Source: a virus | Length of the DNA stretch: 40,426 nucleotides | IMG/VR virus record: IMGVR_UViG_3300026519_000024 | Span: 1 to 40,426 of that record | Direction: 5' to 3' (one strand) | Part shown: one piece after another, positions 425 to 19,285 of the stretch | How the letters are laid out: every line of letters begins with the position of its first letter | Position numbering within the stretch: position 1 is the stretch's first letter | Notes under the pieces: generated by a model | The model's input: only the letters and a program-made list of their open reading frames with translations | Database searches by the model: none | What the model was told of the DNA's origin: nothing | Position numbers and translations under genes: made by a program

Positions 425-2155
425 TTAGCCTAATAGATTTTGTACAATAACCAAGCCATATAAGTCCGGACGTACTAACTTCTTTCCGTATCTTGTCATG
501 ACGCCCTTTCTTGGGACGAAATCCTCGATACCGAAGATCGTGGGAGTTACTTGGAGTGGCACATAAGGAGCATAAACATATCCACTTTCAAGGAAGCTTG
601 ATCCTTTACGTCCTACCAAAATAACGTTACGAGGGAAATATGGGTCCACAAAAACATCCCATTTCTTACTCAAACTACCTGTCTTAACAGCGCCGATATC
701 ACCTTTACCTTCATCATGTACAACATTTGCACGGAAGCCACTAGTAAACTCAAGGATGTTAGAAACTTCTGGACTTACAACCACAAAGTTAGCACCACCT
801 CTAAGAGTCTTACGGTGAATCTGTGCAGAAACATCATTAATCGTCTCTACCAAAGTCTCATACCATTCAGACACAGTGCCAGTAAAGTCGGCACCAAAAA
901 GAGCCTCATTTGCTGAAGTGCTGATAGGAGTACCCAAATCACGGTTAAGGAACTTACCTGGACGACGTGACCAGTGATAAACAGCAGCCGATGCGCCTTT
1001 AATAAGGTCTTCCAAGAGTTCTTGGTCGATTTCAAGTGCAATCTGTTCCGATAAGATAGAAGTAAGCTCTACCTCAGCATCGAGATTGTGGTAAGCACTC
1101 AAATCTTGACCCAACTCAGGAGTCCATTTTGCTTTCAATTTCTTAGTCTTGGCAGTCACTTCGACTGAGTCAACTTTAATATCAATTTCAGGAATAGCAG
1201 CTTCACTTTCCAAGCCCCATTCAACAGTGCCAGCGATTGAACCTAGACCACCACCGCCTTGGAAATTATCATCCATTGCGAATGTAACATCTGGGGTGTC
1301 CAAAGCAATTGCAGCCATTTCATTTGGCGTCGAAGTACCAGCCAAATCAATGACAGCAACACGCAAGTGAGTGTAAGTATCACCTGTTTGCTCAACACCA
1401 GCAGCATTAGACTTTGCAGTCAAACGTCGAACTTGTGAGCCTGATGTGAGACCAGCAAGTGTCACGGAAACCAAGTCACTACGGTTAAATGGTTGACCAC
1501 TTGCTTCCAAAGCACTCAAGGGAGTGGTGAAGATAGCGGCAGTAGTAGTACCAGATACCAAGTCAGGATCATGACGAAGCAAAAGGTCAAGGTTGGCAGT
1601 TCCGACACCAGGAGCACCAACACCGAAAGTACCAGAAGCCACATTTGTGAGGGTAATATTGGTAGCCGAACCAGTAGGTGAGCTATAGCCGTTGTTCAAG
1701 TTGTAAAAACTCTTTTCAGCGCCAGCACCTTGAGAAAGGTCTACACCACCAGTGATTTGACTTGCAACCTTCGAACCACCGTACACTGACTCCTCAGCAA
1801 TACTACCTAAGCGTGAGCTATTAGTGGTAAAATCGAGGAAGAAGATCAAGCCTGATGGCAAGCTCATCGGCTGGACACTTACAAGCTCGTTGGCGATCAA
1901 GGCACCAAATACTCGTCTTACGATAGGAAATGCAACTGCTGCAAAACCTTCCACATCACCAGCTGCCATCGAAGAAGCTTCCCGAAGAAGCTCAGCTGCC
2001 TGGTTCTCTAACAATCGAGCCATATTGCCTTTGGCATGCTCCGATTCTAGACCTTCTAAAAGACCGGTTTCGGTCCATTTAGCGAGAAGCGCGTGGCTTT
2101 CCGCTGAGCGATCAACTTTAGTGATCCCTTCTGTTAGTTTTCTCAAAATACTCAT
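425..2155 (-). CDS. 23: Major capsid protein, T4 gp23-like
   Basis: This 576-residue protein is the main shell subunit. It shows hallmark gp23-family strings: KWTETGLLEGL (about 26-36), NMARLLENQAAELLREA (44-60), PIVRRVFGALIANELVSVQPMSLPSGLIFFLDF (from about 77) and a C-terminus ending in RPDLYGLVIVQNLLG. Length is close to T4 gp23 (about 520) and its diverged relatives. A gp21-type cleavage site (L/I-x-E) is present as LRE-A at residues 57-60, at the place where T4 gp23 is matured, so the propeptide is probably about 59 residues. The start has a strong Shine-Dalgarno (TAAGGAG, about 8 bases upstream). It lies directly downstream of the scaffold gene, as in T4, and is followed by a strong terminator. 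Confidence 0.96.
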   Translation of the reverse strand: MSILRKLTEGITKVDRSAESHALLAKWTETGLLEGLESEHAKGNMARLLENQAAELLREASSMAAGDVEGFAAVAFPIVRRVFGALIANELVSVQPMSLPSGLIFFLDFTTNSSRLGSIAEESVYGGSKVASQITGGVDLSQGAGAEKSFYNLNNGYSSPTGSATNITLTNVASGTFGVGAPGVGTANLDLLLRHDPDLVSGTTTAAIFTTPLSALEASGQPFNRSDLVSVTLAGLTSGSQVRRLTAKSNAAGVEQTGDTYTHLRVAVIDLAGTSTPNEMAAIALDTPDVTFAMDDNFQGGGGLGSIAGTVEWGLESEAAIPEIDIKVDSVEVTAKTKKLKAKWTPELGQDLSAYHNLDAEVELTSILSEQIALEIDQELLEDLIKGASAAVYHWSRRPGKFLNRDLGTPISTSANEALFGADFTGTVSEWYETLVETINDVSAQIHRKTLRGGANFVVVSPEVSNILEFTSGFRANVVHDEGKGDIGAVKTGSLSKKWDVFVDPYFPRNVILVGRKGSSFLESGYVYAPYVPLQVTPTIFGIEDFVPRKGVMTRYGKKLVRPDLYGLVIVQNLLG

Positions 2156-2174
2156 TTTATATCTCCTTAAAGAT

Positions 2175-3257
2175 TTATTCTTTTATTCCGGCTAAAGTCT
2201 TCCATCTTGTTTTCTCTGGATTGACTGTCTTTTGTTGTTTTCTTGCGAATGTAGTTTTACGCTTATTCAATTCTTCACTTAGTGATTTTGGAGGATTAAC
2301 CTTAGTTATACTTCCCACTGAGTCTTTAAGAGCTTCATAGACGCTTTTCGCCTCTTCAACAGTTCCGGTTCTAGTTATAGCTTCGACAATTTTTGTTTTT
2401 TGTCGCTCATTCAAGGAGACGCTCATAAGAACCTCATTAGAGTAAAGTAGCTTAGCATTTACGAGATTAATCTCGGTTAATGTTCCAGACAACTCTACAA
2501 TCTTATTCCTAAATGTAAGATTTCTCTCACTAAGGACTTTCTTCTCTTTAATTAGAGAATTATTTTCCGAAAGAAGTTTTTTATTTTCATTCAAAAACTT
2601 TCCTTCCAATTTCTTTGCTTCCGACAAGACGATTTTCTTGATCCGAGCCGCTTGTAATGCTTCATTCACTTTCGTCTCTTTGGGTTCTTTTTTAGCATCA
2701 TTGGGTCCTTCTTCTTTGTCATCTTCGTCTTTTTCGTCTTCTTCAACTTCTTCTCCAAGCTCTTTATCTGCCCCACCTTGAATCGGCTCGTTGCCGCTTG
2801 CGGCAAGCATTTCAGCTAAAGTTGCCTCGTCTAATTCCAACTCTTCATCGGAGCCATCTTCCATCCCTAAATCACCAGCCAACTCATCATGGGTGGATGT
2901 CTCCTCCTCTGCACCTGGTTCAGCTCGCAATTGGCGCTCCAAGGCATCAAAATCTATCTCTATCTCTTCTTCTTCATCCGGGCATGGGCAAAGCTTTTCT
3001 CCATCCGTGAAAGCAAACGGAACATCGACAGCATCTTCGCTCGGTCCTGCTGGTTCACTTTCTTCTTCATCCGTGCCCAAAAGAGAGGCTGCCTCCTCTT
3101 CATCGTCCAAGCCAGGCTCTTCCTGCTCTAACATAACATTTACCGCTTCTTTTATCTGCAGTGAATATTTTTCTAAAAGAGCATCCTCTGCACTCTTGAA
3201 TGCTGCCTCTTTCAAAGCTTTCGCATCCACGATTGCTTGCTTTAACATTTGCGACAT
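2175..3257 (-). CDS. 22: Prohead core scaffolding protein, T4 gp22-like
   Basis: A 360-residue, very acidic protein. I place the start at ATG 3257-3255 (MSQMLKQAIVDAK), preceded by AAAGGGG, rather than at an in-frame ATG 11 codons upstream. About residues 45-190 are dominated by Glu and Asp runs. From about 200 to 280 there is a charged coiled coil (LSEAKKLEGKFLNENKKLL and following), then SLNERQKTKIVEA, a string that recurs in scaffold proteins of diverged T4-like phages. The position between the protease/bS21 genes and the capsid gene matches T4 gene 22. Such proteins form the internal core on which gp23 assembles and are later degraded by the gp21 protease. Confidence 0.85.
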   Translation of the reverse strand: MSQMLKQAIVDAKALKEAAFKSAEDALLEKYSLQIKEAVNVMLEQEEPGLDDEEEAASLLGTDEEESEPAGPSEDAVDVPFAFTDGEKLCPCPDEEEEIEIDFDALERQLRAEPGAEEETSTHDELAGDLGMEDGSDEELELDEATLAEMLAASGNEPIQGGADKELGEEVEEDEKDEDDKEEGPNDAKKEPKETKVNEALQAARIKKIVLSEAKKLEGKFLNENKKLLSENNSLIKEKKVLSERNLTFRNKIVELSGTLTEINLVNAKLLYSNEVLMSVSLNERQKTKIVEAITRTGTVEEAKSVYEALKDSVGSITKVNPPKSLSEELNKRKTTFARKQQKTVNPEKTRWKTLAGIKE

Positions 3258-7937: not shown

Positions 7938-8763
7938 TTTCTCCTACTAATGCCTGGATCTTTAAGATATCGTTAATCATCCGGTCATCAATTGGAACTC
8001 TCGACATATTATTGAGCATCTCGGAGACCACATTACTTTGATGTTTCATAGAGCTATCATCCTTAACTTCGTCACTGAGAGTGATGGCTACCACTCCTTC
8101 TTTGAGGCGTGCAATCTCTTCATTGAGATGGGTCTTCAATAGAACACCGTTATCAGAAAACGACATAACATAATGTTCAATAGTTACCCTCTGTTCCGCT
8201 GAGAGCGTTCTGTCATATTGTTCATTAAAGCTTTTAACGAATGTTCTATAGGCTAAGTTGTCTATAGTCTCCAGTGTCGCGCCCTTTTCCTCGTCGCCTC
8301 TAGTCATATTCTCAATCAACTTATGTTCCAATAAGAACTTTTCCTTTATTGGAGTTGTGGCTGAGAATATTTGAGCTATACTAGCAAGGCTTTTATAACC
8401 GGGAACAAAATTAGTAAATGGTGTTCCGTTTAATATCTTGTTGACATCTCCAATCAACCTCGTCTGCTCATTGAATAACATCTTGTTGTCAATTAATTTC
8501 CTCTCATCTTTAACAACATCCAAAAACCTCACAGCTGCTTCCTTATCAAGAGAACGTGCCTCCAATAATGCGCTATAAAGCTCCTTCTCTTTATACAAAA
8601 GAGTATCCTTCCTGAAGTTTTTTTTGCAAATCTTTATGATCTCTTTTTGGCGAGAAGTATTTTCTTTCATGATGCTCTTCGTTAATTCACGCACCAACGC
8701 TTCATACAGAAAGAGGGTGTTTCTTTTCTTGTTATGCCTTTGTTTTATCTTTTTTTTCTTCAT
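7912..8763 (-). CDS. Conserved hypothetical protein downstream of portal (283 aa)
   Basis: A largely helical, charged protein. It starts with a very basic stretch (KKKKIKQRHNKKRNTLFLYEALVREL, residues 2-27; the segment KKRNTLFLYEALVREL recurs in related phages). The body is rich in Lys, Glu and Leu, and no known domain or membrane segment was recognised. The start lies 32 bases inside the 3' end of the portal gene, so the two are probably translationally coupled. Together with the next gene it occupies the place of T4 genes 67/68 between portal and protease, so a prohead core or portal-associated role is possible but unproven. Confidence 0.75.
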   Translation of the reverse strand: MKKKKIKQRHNKKRNTLFLYEALVRELTKSIMKENTSRQKEIIKICKKNFRKDTLLYKEKELYSALLEARSLDKEAAVRFLDVVKDERKLIDNKMLFNEQTRLIGDVNKILNGTPFTNFVPGYKSLASIAQIFSATTPIKEKFLLEHKLIENMTRGDEEKGATLETIDNLAYRTFVKSFNEQYDRTLSAEQRVTIEHYVMSFSDNGVLLKTHLNEEIARLKEGVVAITLSDEVKDDSSMKHQSNVVSEMLNNMSRVPIDDRMINDILKIQALVGENEGKADDS

Positions 8764-11700
8764 TATCCCTCTTCTCCATCTCTTCTACGAGTCGTTGCAT
8801 TTGCTTATTGATATCAAAAATCTTTTGTTCGCTGGTCTTCATATCACTGTCTTTTTCCATATTTCTCATTTCGTCGATGTAACTAGTTTCCCATTGTTCA
8901 TATATTCCATTTCCCATAGAAGCAATCTCTTGTGCTCCACTTCCCATTACGTTTCTCTTCGTTCCACTTGATTTTTCCTTAGCCCACTTAGCGTGGTTGT
9001 GCCGCTTGCGGGCACCGGCTCCCCTCCTATCTCCTCCCGTGTATTTGACAGGTTTATAGTTCTTGCCCTTCGATTTAGGGGTAGTTGTCAACTTATCATC
9101 TCTCTTGCCGGCTGGTGCCGCAAGAAGTGCACTATCATCAGCCTCGTTGTTATCTTCGTCATCTTCAGTAGTGTCACCAAGTTCTCCGACGCCAGCTTCT
9201 TCTCCGCCTGAGCCTAAATCCATCTCGTCGTCTGCCAAGCCCAAATCCATCTCGTCATCTCCCAGCGTATCGCTCCCCATTCCACCTAAGCTGCCGAGTC
9301 CACCTTCCTCTTCACTGCCCTCGACCACGGCGTCGAGCATCGCTTCAAACTTTCGATCATAGAACATCTCTCTCTGATTTCTTAAAAATTCTTCGTCGGT
9401 CAAATTGAAGAGACTCTTCGCCACCCAACGGCGTGAAAAATACCCCTCAGTAGCCGCTGATGCAACATCAAATCGTGTTCTCCAGTGCTCCAGATCTTGA
9501 AGCTCTGCTATCTTTGAGGGATTATTGAGTCTTAGCTTAAATGCCAGCAAATCGTCCCCTCGGAACCCTAAAGTATATAAATGTACAATACCAATCTTTT
9601 CTAACTCACCCACGATTGTACGTTGGAGGCGTTGAATTGTTCGTGCAAATCTTATGTCCTTCTGCGCTAGGGTGGTCTTGTCTTCTGATGCTCCATCTCC
9701 TCGCGAAAGGTATGACTGCGGTACCTTTAGAGCTGAGAATAATTTATCCCTTAAATATTTGACATCATCAATATCACCAGTATATTGCCCGCCGGGCAGC
9801 GGTTCAATCTTTGAAGATGTCTGCCCCCTGACCGGGATGAAATAATCCTCTTCAACACTTAAAGGATTATAACGCAAGTCAACTCGCCCGGTAGAATCGT
9901 TCACTACTTGGTTTCTCTTCATCTGTGTGATTGCTTTTTGCATATATTGTTCGACATCATTGGCTGCAATGTGCCCAACATCGATATAGAACACCCTTCG
10001 TTCTGGTGCCCTAACGATACGATACGCCATCATGGCGTCTTCTAGTAGTGTGAGTTGTCTCCAGATTCTTCTTGAAGACTCGAGGACGCTCGTTCCATAA
10101 GGCGCATATTTATCATTGCCGAGAATCCTAAAGTGAGCAACTTGCCAGTTCTCAAAAGTCATGCCACCACTGTTCCATTGATACTGCACATAATTTGGAT
10201 TCGTTTTATCTTCTCCTTCTAGTCTCTCTACTTCATGAGCCGGAAGACCAATAACATTCTGGATTCCTTCCTTCTCGTCAATATCGAGATACAAGAAGAA
10301 GTCTCCATATTTGCAGGTAGAGCGACACCACCCAAACAGATTGTAATTAACATTCATGATATTGCGATATAAATTATTCAATACTGTCTTTAGTTCTTCA
10401 TTGGGACAGTCAATACTAAGCATGTCTTCTAAAGAAGTGTGGGTAGTCATTTCGTCAGCGTAGACATCAAGACTCGAATTCGAGACTATCATGCCGTTTT
10501 CTAAGCAGTAATTCTCTAAATGTTCAACTGTCAAGTCATATACAGCCTCTGTCCTGCCGGTATTTCTAACCTCTATTACTTTATGATTACTATACATGTA
10601 ATCTCTCTTGTAAGCTGACCAACTTTGAAAACCAGCTGCCTGTAATCTACGTCGAAGAAATTGTGTCTTCTTTTCTATATCAGCGAATATACGATTACCA
10701 AAATCAAAATTGCGGGCAAACTCAACAAATGAATTGAATTTCAACCCCTCGACGAGGATCTGTTCAGTTGTTATTTCTCTATTGAACCTTCCATTATCAC
10801 TACCGACACGTCTTGTTCTCTCCTTTAGTGACGGTTCGTTGGCATATTTTAACTTCATTACCTCAGAATGATGCTTGGATTTCCATGCGCGCCATTCAGG
10901 ATCTGCCCACAATGACTTGGCATGGTGTGAAAAAATATTTGCCATTTTTTCTGCGTATTCCAAATCCTCTTTCCACCTCTTTTTATTCATCCTGGAGGTA
11001 TGCTCTGACATAAACACCTTACCTTCTTCTGAAGCTTGCCACCTTTTAAGTCCAGCTAGTGCACGCTCCCTGTAGGCGGAGTCATTCCACAATTCCTTAC
11101 AAGTGGTGGATCGCTTTTTATTAGTAGCAGGTGAAATGCCATGATGCTTCATATGTGCATCAGGAGCCATAACTTTCAAATTAACAGTCCTATTATCAGT
11201 CTTTATCTCATTAATATGATGTACATGATCGCTGCCGATATCTTTACTAAGTACATCCTCCATTATATAACGATGCGCTTGTTTGTATTTGCCCCGCTCT
11301 TCGGTACGCAGTTTGAGATATCCAGCTGAATTGGATCTATAGTCAAACTGGTTTAGACTTTCTCCAGGTTGCAACGTGCCAGCTTGTTTATATGTACCGT
11401 CTTTCATCATTATTCTATGATCAGCTGTACAGAATAGGCTCTTGCCATTATCGATAACAACTTCAATCAATTCTTTTACGCCAGTTATTCTTGGATGATG
11501 TGCGTTTCCAATCGTATAGCAATTACGATGATGATCCCATGACCATATCTCAAAATGCTCGTTATTGGCATATTTTCGTGCTAATTCTTTTATTTCTATA
11601 AACCCTTCTAGAGTAGCTACTTTAGTAGTACCATCTAGACAACCGATCTCTGGCGTAAATTCCATTTGATCAAAGTCCAAATAGCGTTCGCTTCGATTTT

Positions 11701-11941
11701 GGTTTGCCATCGCATTAGCTTGAATATGTTCAAATGGACTATAGCTAGCCTTCTTAAACCCTTGCCCACTAGCTGAGTCAAATCTATACTTATCTAATTT
11801 CTTTCTCTTTTCTTGGCGATAATTTTGTTGTCTGCGATTAACAATAGGACCAGAAAAGATCCTAGTTAATCTTTTGTATAGCTTATCTTCTGAATTTCTA
11901 GGGTTTCGTCCATTTTTCATATTTATTCGCCTTCGTGCCAT
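8732..11941 (-). CDS. 20: Portal protein, T4 gp20-like, interrupted by an intein
   Basis: The precursor is 1069 residues when started at ATG 11941 (MARRRINMKNGR). Removal of the intein (residues 101-488) leaves about 681 residues, compared with about 524 in T4. The extein shows gp20-family sequence: SSLDVYADEMTTHTS just after the splice point, IDCPNEELKTVLNNLYRNIM, NLFGWCRSTCKYGDFFLYLDI, YGTSVLESSRRIWRQLTLLEDAMMAYRIVRAPERRVFYIDVG, and VEEDYFIPVRG followed by LPGG. The extra length is a C-terminal tail with acidic Gly-rich repeats (two copies of DDEMDLG) and then a basic and helical end. The portal forms the dodecameric DNA-entry ring at the head vertex. The gene follows the terminase and overlaps the next gene by 32 bases. 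Confidence 0.93.
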   Translation of the reverse strand: MARRRINMKNGRNPRNSEDKLYKRLTRIFSGPIVNRRQQNYRQEKRKKLDKYRFDSASGQGFKKASYSPFEHIQANAMANQNRSERYLDFDQMEFTPEIGCLDGTTKVATLEGFIEIKELARKYANNEHFEIWSWDHHRNCYTIGNAHHPRITGVKELIEVVIDNGKSLFCTADHRIMMKDGTYKQAGTLQPGESLNQFDYRSNSAGYLKLRTEERGKYKQAHRYIMEDVLSKDIGSDHVHHINEIKTDNRTVNLKVMAPDAHMKHHGISPATNKKRSTTCKELWNDSAYRERALAGLKRWQASEEGKVFMSEHTSRMNKKRWKEDLEYAEKMANIFSHHAKSLWADPEWRAWKSKHHSEVMKLKYANEPSLKERTRRVGSDNGRFNREITTEQILVEGLKFNSFVEFARNFDFGNRIFADIEKKTQFLRRRLQAAGFQSWSAYKRDYMYSNHKVIEVRNTGRTEAVYDLTVEHLENYCLENGMIVSNSSLDVYADEMTTHTSLEDMLSIDCPNEELKTVLNNLYRNIMNVNYNLFGWCRSTCKYGDFFLYLDIDEKEGIQNVIGLPAHEVERLEGEDKTNPNYVQYQWNSGGMTFENWQVAHFRILGNDKYAPYGTSVLESSRRIWRQLTLLEDAMMAYRIVRAPERRVFYIDVGHIAANDVEQYMQKAITQMKRNQVVNDSTGRVDLRYNPLSVEEDYFIPVRGQTSSKIEPLPGGQYTGDIDDVKYLRDKLFSALKVPQSYLSRGDGASEDKTTLAQKDIRFARTIQRLQRTIVGELEKIGIVHLYTLGFRGDDLLAFKLRLNNPSKIAELQDLEHWRTRFDVASAATEGYFSRRWVAKSLFNLTDEEFLRNQREMFYDRKFEAMLDAVVEGSEEEGGLGSLGGMGSDTLGDDEMDLGLADDEMDLGSGGEEAGVGELGDTTEDDEDNNEADDSALLAAPAGKRDDKLTTTPKSKGKNYKPVKYTGGDRRGAGARKRHNHAKWAKEKSSGTKRNVMGSGAQEIASMGNGIYEQWETSYIDEMRNMEKDSDMKTSEQKIFDINKQMQRLVEEMEKRDNEEKKDKTKA
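10473..10484. repeat. 12-bp perfect palindrome at the intein C-terminal junction
   Basis: CTCGAATTCGAG spans the codons of the last intein residues (Ser-Asn) and the first extein Ser, centred within the final Asn codon. Because it covers the insertion boundary it may be related to the endonuclease target or be chance. The intein-free target would keep only the extein half. Confidence 0.6.
10478..11641 (-). mobile_element. Intein with HNH homing endonuclease inside the portal protein
   Basis: A 388-residue in-frame insertion. Block A starts at Cys1 (CLDGTTKVAT) and block B has the T-x-x-H pattern (CTADHRIM, Thr72-His75). Near the end block F reads VYDLTVEHLENYCLENG and block G reads MIVSN, with Ser as the +1 extein residue. 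Joining Gly before Cys1 to the +1 Ser restores PEIG-SSLDVYADE, a conserved portal segment. Between the splicing halves lies an HNH domain (DHVHHINEIKTDNRTVNLKV, about 138-157, plus His163/166). Tryptophan-rich helical repeats follow (ELWNDSAYRERA, SLWADPEWRAW), like NUMOD-type DNA-binding segments. The usual penultimate His of block G is replaced by Ser, which some active inteins tolerate. Both splicing and endonuclease residues look intact. Confidence 0.93.
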
Positions 11942-16111: not shown

Positions 16112-19100
16112 TCAGTTCTCCACATGTGCACACTTGTCCACTTTATCGATATCAATCTGCAGGTCTACTATATCCTTTAGAGCATCTAGGTGAGAAATGA
16201 TCAACACCGTCTTGAATTGCGTCTTCAGCATTTCTATTATTCTGACAAAACCTTCCATGTTCTCTTCGTCTAACGCAGTTGCAGGCTCATCTAAGATAAA
16301 TAGATCGCCCTGTGGCAGATTGCTTATTTTAATAAGTGATAAACGTATAGCCATCGCCGAAAGCATCTTCTCTGCGCCAGATCCAAGTTCTAGTGGTCTA
16401 GCTTCGAATTTTGGATGCTTGATCAAAATGTCCAATTTCTTCCCATCTTCTTCAAAAAAAACTTGAAAATCAACGACATTGGCGAGGACTTTTGAGATCT
16501 CATTATTGATTGTTGGAAGGCTTCCTTTGATCACATCATAACTAATTCCATTACTATGCATTGAGCAGTTATACAGATCATAAGCAGAATATTGTACATG
16601 TAGATCACTCAATTCCCCTTGGAGCTCCTCTGCTACTTGTAGGCGGTGTTCCAGAGAGCCATGATTTTTATATAACTCAAGCAGTTCTTCTTCATAACTA
16701 GCCAATTCAGCTTCTAGGGTGCTTTTCGAACCCCTGCACTCTTCTTGCTTGACATATAAGGATTTTAATTTCTCAACCTCTTCTTTATTCGCTCTATAAT
16801 CAAACAAATCACTTTCTGAAGTTTTTATCTCTTTGTTGGTTTTATCGAGATTCATGCCGTCAATTGTCTCACTTGCCATCAGTGCGCTCAACTTTGTGCT
16901 CTCCTCTGTCGCACGCTCTCTAAGTTTCTCATATTCTTTTAATAGTTCACCATTATCAGGTCCAAGTAGGCGATCGATATTAGCTAAATTTTGGTAAGCC
17001 TCGTTGAGGATCGTCAATTTACCATCAGTAGTAACGCTTTCTTTGCTTGCTCGCTGAGCATCTGTTAAAAACATGCATCCTAAGAATCTATCTCCGCAAG
17101 GGACCTTCGCTAGCAACGACTGCTTTTTATTTTCTCTATCACGCTTAGCATCATACTTTTCTATTTCTCGTAAAATTCTCTGCAACTCTATAACGTTCTC
17201 TCTTTTCTGAGCCTGTTTTTCTTTCTCTTTTTCAATATCTACTTTCTGTATCAGGTCATTAATCTGAGATAAGACCGATTCTCTTCCTTCACTCTCCTTG
17301 CGGGAATCTTCTAGCCGCTTAGTAAGTATCTTTGCTAATTTTCTAGCTTCCTCTAGTTTCTGTTCCTCTTCCTCAAGGTTGAACACCCTTAGCTTCGGTG
17401 AGGCAGAAATTTCTTTAATTATCTCAAGTTCTTCTCCATCGAGAATACGCAGTTGTTCTCTTATATTATCACAGTATCCCTTTTGTTGCTTAGTTGCAGC
17501 AACATTCCATTCTAATTCACTGCTAACATTTCGCTCTTCTTGTTTTAGATCTCTGCGTTTCAACCTATCTAATGCACCCTTTATTTTTGCAGCATCCTCG
17601 GTTGCCAATTTATGCTTTTTTGCATAAATGTCCAAATCAAGAAACTTGCCTAATATTTCCTTTCTCTTTGTCGAACCTTCATTGATAAATGATAAGCCTC
17701 CCTCCTGACTCGTCATAGAGGTTAAGAGGAAATCTTCAATAGAACCAAAGTGTCTTCTTATTTCTTTGTCTGTCTCGTTCCTTGAGTTGCCGTTGAGCTT
17801 TGTTTCGCGACCTGTTGCAGCATCTTTCAGTAAGAATTGCACATCAGTCTTTGCTTCTTCTGTCTCCTCTCCTTTCAGCTTCTTTATATATTTTTCCGCA
17901 CTTCTCTCAATAGTGTAGATATTACCATCTACCTCTAACTTTACCATACCACAGCCATAAGATTCGTTTTGATTAATAATATCAACGTTCTTTCTCACAT
18001 TCTTGGAGGTAGAATTCTGAAGTGTCCAGAGGAAACTATCGATTATGCTTGATTTACCGGAGAAATTCTTACCGAAGATGCCGACCACACCCTTGAGCTT
18101 GTCGAAATTTAGCCTATTCCCTGTCCCGTAATTAAAGAGATTATCCCAAGTAAGCTCCTTTAAGCGCCATTTGATATTTCTGAGAGTGTCTTCTGATTGT
18201 TCAACTTCAGTATTATATTTTCTGTTCAACTCCAGAATTCTTTGCATCACTTCATCATCGACACGATAATCGTTCAGGTATTCCTTGATGAGCTTCTCTT
18301 GGACGGCAATATCTCTCATATCTTCAATCTCAAAGCCATCAACTGATTCTCTTACGGAATTCCTCGCAGTCCCCACTTTGTTGAAAAAGGTTAATGCTTC
18401 CGGCTTATAGCGCGATTCAGCGACCTCCAAAGCATTGCGAAGCTGTTCTAGAGTCACTTTACTGGTACCAACAATTCGCATTCGGCTGCCAGCTTGAACT
18501 TTTAGCTCAGGCAATATGCCGCTTTCTGGTAATTTAATTGTAATAAAGGGGGTCGGGTTTTTTATCTCCACGTGTCTAACTGTATAATCGCTCTTTGAGA
18601 TTATGTCCCAAATCAAAAATCCTTTATCGTCCGACTCTCCAAAGTTCTGCTGTACCGTGCTCCCTGGGTATCTGTATTTCTCGCTAGCACCGACAAATTG
18701 ATTTGTCTTATGAATATCGCCCAAGAGCGCGTAGTCACAACCTTCAAAAATGCTCTCGTCGTAATCCCCATTATCTAATGTGTAACCGGTGTCAGTTTTG
18801 ACTCCATTAATAGCACCATGGTATAACGCTATATTGATTTTTTCTGGGTCAGTTGGAGGAAGCCACTCGCCCTCCTCTTGTAATATTGACTTGATAATGA
18901 AAGTGATATCATCGTTAAATTTATACTCGCAAGAGTCTTTAAACAACTTTAAATTATTATGCCTCAAGGTCTCGACAATTGGTGTTATTGCGTCCTGTCG
19001 AGCCTTATTTTTGATGTTACAGTCGTGATTTCCCAAAATTATTATGGTAGGCGAAATGTCTGCCAAGTTTTTCAAAAAAGCCGCCGCCATTTCAAAATAT

Positions 19101-19285
19101 TCTGGACTTAACTGTGTCTTCGTATGTGCTAAATCTCCACAATGTACTATACAATCTGGCTGTGCTTGCTTAACTTCCTCATATAACTTCGCGAATACTT
19201 CTCTATATTCACTATGGTATTTTAGATTTTTTATATGTGTATCAGCAATATGCACGATACGACAACCTTCTCTCTTCTTTTCCAC
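16112..19285 (-). CDS. Fused Mre11-Rad50 (SbcD-SbcC) recombination nuclease, T4 gp47+gp46
   Basis: A single 1057-residue chain joins both subunits of the DNA end-processing complex. The N-terminal Mre11/SbcD nuclease has the metallophosphoesterase motifs HIADTH (12-17), CGDLAH (49-54), LGNHD (84-88), LYHGAI (154-159) and GDIHK (189-193), followed by a cap region to about 340. The Rad50/SbcC ATPase starts near 370 (IKWRLKELTWDNLFNYG) with Walker A GIFGKNFSGKSS (402-413). Two long coiled coils flank a variant zinc hook (VPCGDRFLGC, Cys730 and Cys737, not the usual C-x-x-C). The ABC signature is LELGSGAEKMLSAM (965-978) and Walker B is LFILDEPATALDEEN (995-1009). In T4 these are separate genes 46 and 47, needed for recombination-dependent replication. 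No stop or frame break lies between the halves. Confidence 0.95.
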   Translation of the reverse strand: MEKKREGCRIVHIADTHIKNLKYHSEYREVFAKLYEEVKQAQPDCIVHCGDLAHTKTQLSPEYFEMAAAFLKNLADISPTIIILGNHDCNIKNKARQDAITPIVETLRHNNLKLFKDSCEYKFNDDITFIIKSILQEEGEWLPPTDPEKINIALYHGAINGVKTDTGYTLDNGDYDESIFEGCDYALLGDIHKTNQFVGASEKYRYPGSTVQQNFGESDDKGFLIWDIISKSDYTVRHVEIKNPTPFITIKLPESGILPELKVQAGSRMRIVGTSKVTLEQLRNALEVAESRYKPEALTFFNKVGTARNSVRESVDGFEIEDMRDIAVQEKLIKEYLNDYRVDDEVMQRILELNRKYNTEVEQSEDTLRNIKWRLKELTWDNLFNYGTGNRLNFDKLKGVVGIFGKNFSGKSSIIDSFLWTLQNSTSKNVRKNVDIINQNESYGCGMVKLEVDGNIYTIERSAEKYIKKLKGEETEEAKTDVQFLLKDAATGRETKLNGNSRNETDKEIRRHFGSIEDFLLTSMTSQEGGLSFINEGSTKRKEILGKFLDLDIYAKKHKLATEDAAKIKGALDRLKRRDLKQEERNVSSELEWNVAATKQQKGYCDNIREQLRILDGEELEIIKEISASPKLRVFNLEEEEQKLEEARKLAKILTKRLEDSRKESEGRESVLSQINDLIQKVDIEKEKEKQAQKRENVIELQRILREIEKYDAKRDRENKKQSLLAKVPCGDRFLGCMFLTDAQRASKESVTTDGKLTILNEAYQNLANIDRLLGPDNGELLKEYEKLRERATEESTKLSALMASETIDGMNLDKTNKEIKTSESDLFDYRANKEEVEKLKSLYVKQEECRGSKSTLEAELASYEEELLELYKNHGSLEHRLQVAEELQGELSDLHVQYSAYDLYNCSMHSNGISYDVIKGSLPTINNEISKVLANVVDFQVFFEEDGKKLDILIKHPKFEARPLELGSGAEKMLSAMAIRLSLIKISNLPQGDLFILDEPATALDEENMEGFVRIIEMLKTQFKTVLIISHLDALKDIVDLQIDIDKVDKCAHVEN

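Follow-up and report, generated by a model that had tools for sequence, protein, structure and literature searches.

What is a 388-residue insert doing within the portal protein of a T4-like phage, and how should its loss of two histidines that usually assist intein splicing be read? The window, by which we mean the whole stretch of DNA analysed (a 40,426-base IMG/VR virus record), gave a single Intein_splicing match, and the portal and its insert are encoded together in one open frame on the minus strand (11950-8732). In a profile search the product matched Portal_T4 (PF07230) with 236.5 bits against a cut-off of 22.9. Homologues beginning MA... indicate that translation probably starts at ATG 11941, from which the precursor is 1069 residues long and the expected spliced product 681; the length of 681 residues given in the initial annotation holds if this start is used. 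The surrounding genes, with the large terminase subunit (TerL) upstream, a head maturation protease and the major head protein, are those expected of a T4-type head module, and together with the Portal_T4 match above cut-off they identify the gene as encoding a T4-type portal (gp20). Elsewhere in the window, a single 1057-residue frame (16112-19285, minus strand) has an SbcD-like metallophosphoesterase part followed by an SbcC/SMC-like part, and is apparently a fusion of T4 gp47 and gp46 into a single gene.

The insert is stop-free from 11641 to 10478 on the minus strand and reads CLDGTTKVATLEG...VYDLTVEHLENYCLENGMIVSN, followed by the extein Ser. Its boundaries were established by comparison of the window with 80 portal homologues, fetched with the C-extein. 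In nearly all readable intein-free portals the end of the N-extein (...PEIA) and the start of the C-extein (SALDIYADE...) lie on adjacent codons; the exact junction falls between PEI(G/A) and S, across which the intein-free relatives are contiguous. Removal of the insert restores this portal segment, as the initial annotation had proposed, and the limits that it gave for a 388-residue intein (10478-11641) proved exact on alignment to intein profiles and to intein-free gp20 homologues. The insertion point, here called site a, lies inside a near-invariant segment, between DFDQMEYTPEIA and SALDIYADEMTT, and among 91 related portals examined, the residue that follows it is Ser in all 89 that have a recognizable motif. 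Alignment through intermediate phages equates site a with the position between D89 and N90 of T4 gp20, in the first part of the wing domain (residues 70-254), through which the portal mainly contacts the capsid (PMC4493910). As the insert splits a near-invariant motif of the wing domain, the unspliced portal should not work, and 388 additional residues at this point should be incompatible with the portal dodecamer.

Profile searches recognized the insert as an intein through PF14890 (Intein_splicing, E 3e-16, cut-off passed) and through the N-terminal and C-terminal intein models TIGR01445 and TIGR01443, both above their curated NCBIfam cut-offs (Table 1). An AlphaFold2 model built from a 12-sequence alignment had a mean pLDDT of 77, with the highest values in the Hint parts; a model built from only three sequences reached a pLDDT of just 47 and was set aside. 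The two Hint halves, one at either end of the 12-sequence model (residues 1-100 and 352-388), superimpose on solved inteins with Z of about 21 over 134-142 residues, the matches at this level being the NrdJ-1, Ssp DnaB, Npu DnaB and Mtu RecA inteins, with DnaE at Z 20; the comparison with 8ubs_A gave Z 21.4 and an rmsd of 1.6 over 138 residues. The model thus predicts a complete Hint domain. Between the halves lie, in order, the HNH domain (residues 104-179), Trp-rich repeats that are conserved across the site-a family and predicted with low confidence in the model, and a helix-turn-helix (HTH)-like segment. The HNH residues H141, H142, N150, N154 and H163 are invariant in seven aligned inteins. 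The window copy scores 19.7 bits with HNH_3 (PF13392), below the Pfam cut-off of 24.8, which the copy in a relative at the same site (L002) passes at 26.4, and PHROGs HNH families match the window intein, with PHROG 7545 giving the E-value in Table 1. Matches to ZorE in PADLOC reflect the shared HNH motif only, and a defence role was rejected.

Table 1. Positions of the portal gene, its intein and the intein parts in the window, and of gp20-type portal frames with several inteins in other records.
Feature	Position	Strand	Basis or remark
gp20-type portal gene (intein precursor)	8732..11941	-	Portal_T4 PF07230, E 6.3e-70
N-extein, C-terminal end ...MEFTPEIG	11642..11941	-	adjoins C-extein in intein-free homologues
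Intein, 388 aa, class 1 (Cys1 ... Ser-Asn)	10478..11641	-	site a
Hint N-terminal half	11342..11641	-	TIGR01445, E 1.6e-8; AlphaFold2 pLDDT about 90-97
Cys1	11639-11641	-	in Hint N-terminal half
Block B, T72-A-D-H75	11417-11428	-	in Hint N-terminal half
HNH endonuclease domain, H141-H142...D149-N150-R151...N154-L155...H163	11105..11332	-	PHROG 7545, E 5.6e-11
Trp-rich helical repeats, presumed DNA-binding linker	10772..11104	-	sequence and low-pLDDT AlphaFold2 helices
Helical HTH-like segment, presumed DNA-binding	10589..10771	-	AlphaFold2 helices
Hint C-terminal half: NHKV, block F VYDLTVEHLENY, Ser387-Asn388	10478..10588	-	TIGR01443, E 5e-4; alignments
C-extein	8732..10477	-	Ser+1 (10475-10477), then SLDVYADE; Ser+1 invariant, 89 portals
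Multi-intein gp20-type portal frame	L171:2969-6685	+	
Multi-intein gp20-type portal frame	L184:3753-8981	-	
Multi-intein gp20-type portal frame	L166:1313-4531	+	
Multi-intein gp20-type portal frame	L199:4771-8670	-	
Multi-intein gp20-type portal frame	L083:2728-6888	+	

The residues required of a class-1 intein are present: the nucleophile Cys1, the terminal Asn388 and Ser+1 are retained in the site-a carriers, and T72, H75 and Asp369 of block F vary little or not at all across alignments of 7 to 14 inteins. With the Hint fold of the predicted model, and an in-frame insert that has exact extein ends and is absent from homologues, these features mark the insert as a class-1 HNH intein of a familiar kind, for which splicing is predicted. 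Assignment to class 3 was rejected, given Cys1 and an Asp (Asp369) instead of Cys at block F position 4. The penultimate and block-F histidines, which are typical of class 1 without strictly defining it, are replaced by Ser387 and Glu376 (10514-10516). The initial annotation had described an intact-looking HNH intein with Cys1, the block B T-x-x-H, Trp-rich repeats, a final Asn preceded by Ser and an extein Ser, all of which we find, but it had missed the replacement of His by Glu in block F.

Three further portals carry the same HNH intein precisely at site a: L002 (intein 54% identical), L096 (51%) and L150 (50%), all from IMG/VR contigs with different metagenome identifiers. Cys1, T-x-x-H, the block-F Asp, Asn and Ser+1 are kept in all four copies. 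Pairwise identities among the four inteins are flat (48-54%) and those among their exteins range from 38 to 66%; in every comparison that involves L150, the inteins are closer to each other than are the host proteins. In a tree of 72 portals, which included the window, L002 and L096 and left out L150, the three carriers do not group together, each having a place of its own, and the carrier label requires three changes. At least 86 of the 89 related portals with a recognizable motif (89/91) are intein-free at site a. Within these 89 portals, to which the window is additional, only L002 and L096 hold an insert there, a third parsed case not being counted as a carrier. Searches with junction patterns returned mostly intein-free portals, ending in EIN or IIN before the Ser, and so add no carriers to the count beyond L002 and L096. 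Flat intein identities, variable extein identities and scattered carriers together form the pattern of a homing element, and the site-a intein is probably mobile. The ratio pN/pS across the intein is 0.40-0.46, values that are rough since pS is near saturation, and differs little between the Hint and HNH regions, pointing to purifying selection on both the splicing and the endonuclease parts. Inteins have a slightly lower pS than exteins in most comparisons; pS is saturated, and we set this aside as evidence of recent transfer. The HNH residues and domain, and a sporadic, host-decoupled distribution at one site, are those of an intein-borne homing endonuclease, and the comparison of sequences carries the signature of a homing element in which both functions appear to be still intact. 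No relatives of the window intein were found when 84,980 prokaryote species were scanned twice with strict peptide patterns, an absence that weighs little given the strictness of the patterns.

To place the two replaced histidines in context, we considered a sample of 56 viral inteins that share the block-F motif and have a parsed C-terminus. The penultimate residue is His in 43 and Ser in eight, making Ser the second commonest residue at this position, and a terminal Ser-Asn is also found in Npu DnaE, a fast intein. At the block-F position before Asn, the same 56 inteins have His in 45 cases and Glu in five. The pair of Glu and Ser occurs twice in this sample, in L002 and L150, both of the site-a family; it is likewise present in the window and in L096, so that the pair is found in 4/4 family members. 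As penultimate Ser is common and the pair is confined to the site-a family in this sample, the unusual feature of the window intein is the Glu/Ser pair, not Ser alone. Phage inteins with Gly, Lys or Ser at the penultimate position have been described, and in the one phage intein tested, exchange of the native Gly for His slowed splicing, while in other inteins the effect was opposite or nil (PMC5050341). The suggestion in the initial annotation that the penultimate Ser may slow C-terminal cleavage and so delay portal maturation is not supported by these observations, and the rate and timing of splicing cannot be read from sequence.

Taken together, these results make a class-1 intein that carries an HNH homing endonuclease, a selfish element resident in a gp20-type portal gene, the very probable identity of the insert. 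Splicing, DNA cutting and the following chemical steps are what we infer for it. The 1069-residue precursor would fold its Hint domain, and Cys1 would form the N-terminal thioester with the help of T72, H75 and Asp369; Ser+1 would then attack the thioester, and cyclization of Asn388 would release the 681-residue portal and the free 388-residue endonuclease. In co-infecting phages, the latter would cut intein-free copies of the conserved stretch that encodes this part of the wing domain, at a site that we place from the position of the intein only, and repair of the cut would copy the intein into the intein-free allele. What speaks against this reading is that both His residues that usually help Asn cyclization are replaced, by Glu and Ser.

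The same replacement could be taken to mean that head assembly and the maturation of the portal are timed by slow or conditional splicing, in which case selection on the phage would maintain the intein as a regulator. Retention of the Glu/Ser pair in all four family members agrees with this, as does the capacity of the penultimate position to tune the accumulation of precursor (PMC5050341). We nevertheless regard it as improbable: at least 86 of 89 related portals lack an intein at site a, and since most related portals do without it the phage does not appear to need it; Ser is a common penultimate residue among viral inteins, and in the published test His slowed rather than sped splicing (PMC5050341). 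A still less likely reading is that the insert is dead or tolerated, with no splicing at all, and that the portal works regardless or the phage is defective. Splicing is predicted here from sequence, and two canonical histidines are missing, but four diverged copies retain Cys1, TxxH, the block-F Asp, Asn and Ser+1, the frame is under apparent purifying selection, and the wing domain would be split at its main capsid contact. The window is a contig from an IMG/VR virus record, and assembly or binning might in principle have joined an unrelated HNH/Hint gene to the portal gene; the recurrence of the same junction in three more IMG/VR contigs with different metagenome identifiers, the frame kept on both sides and the exact intein ends refute this in practice, and we give it next to no weight.

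For an intein in a phage portal gene, the only precedent that we found in the open-licence literature is the portal (PORT) inteins of six cluster C1 mycobacteriophages (Kelley et al., 2016; PMC5050341). These phages belong to a group other than that of the window's T4-like phage, and mycobacteriophage class-1 inteins also often lack the penultimate His, having Gly, Lys or Ser instead (PMC5050341). The best match among isolated phages, and the best viral fold match (E 1.8e-21), is the intein of SP15_022 from Bacillus phage SP-15, which aligns over the full length (1-388) at 24% identity with the same order of Hint, HNH, helical repeats and Hint; its host gene encodes a hypothetical protein near terL and, unlike the window intein, it has the canonical block-F and penultimate His. 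The packaging machinery of T4-like phages is also host to the gp17/TerL inteins of phage Maynard and Campylobacter phage IBB_35, where the terminase rather than the portal carries the intein and the available text of the reports mentions no gp20 intein (PMC3868846, PMC3322345). A second set of inteins lies in the same portal family, in huge-phage-type portals, ten residues downstream of site a (LR756511.1, L127, L132, L134, L136, L084, L087, L159, L172 and L209). At this site b, where extein DEA precedes intein C...HN and extein CQKD follows it, the N-terminal Hint half is 43-51% identical to that of the site-a family, but the inteins are only about 230 residues long, lack the HNH domain, have an HTH-like middle and use Cys at +1 with a penultimate His.

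Among the matches listed, 63 distinct intein-bearing viral genes were picked by one block-F motif, a choice that makes the host shares indicative only: 15 were Portal_T4, 14 ribonucleotide reductase barrel and two another portal family. The gp20-type portal is a recurrent intein target, about as frequent as ribonucleotide reductase in this sample. The view in the initial annotation that portal hosts are less often described is borne out for the literature and fails for the sequences of uncultivated phages. Inserts of 17 portals, mapped onto the portal of the window, occupy 13 positions with clear boundaries, after residues 103, 109, 113, 204, 232, 245, 257, 259, 298, 311, 333, 337 and 370, and an additional position after residue 373, whose boundary is lost at a contig end. 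Several positions are common to different portals, and position 103 is used by the HNH family and also by a 154-residue mini-intein in L171. Some portals hold two inteins (L096, L199), three (L083, L166, L184) or four (L171, the fourth cut off); we found no gp20 portals with several inteins in the open-licence literature. In 50,697 phage records, portal inteins related to those of sites a and b were found only in LR756508.1 and LR756511.1, both uncultivated huge phages. We tentatively suggest that the site-a lineage, in which a fixed block-F Glu and the penultimate Ser have persisted through about 50% divergence, may have rebuilt its C-terminal cleavage around this pair, and that gp20-type portals may be an unreported hotspot in uncultivated phages.

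Several further inteins were seen in these records. At 1769-2194 (minus strand), L096 has a second intein in its portal, a mini-intein of 142 residues between YRIVR and SPERR, a site also used in L199, and the 201-kb L096 record has six Intein_splicing matches in all. The second portal intein of L184 (AFDTPIPLLDG...GVFVKN, followed by SS) has no Cys1 and has Cys at the block-F Asp position (DHYCMTV), and looks like a class-3 intein. Another intein lies in a small gene (L083:865-2646, plus strand) adjoining the triple-intein portal of the huge phage LR756508.1, and related HNH inteins occur in L086 and L089 in genes that, judged by eye, look actin/ParM-like.

Intein-bearing portals are likely to be annotated as oversized or hypothetical, and gp20-based diversity surveys can misread them. 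With its conserved Glu/Ser pair, the site-a family is a natural variant in which to study splicing chemistry without the two usual histidines. Inteins have mostly been discussed as guests of DNA-metabolism enzymes, whereas here a structural head protein was matched as often as ribonucleotide reductase in the sample. The portal thus lends itself to asking what leads inteins to particular insertion sites, and how phages tolerate a precursor that needs several excisions before the head can be assembled.
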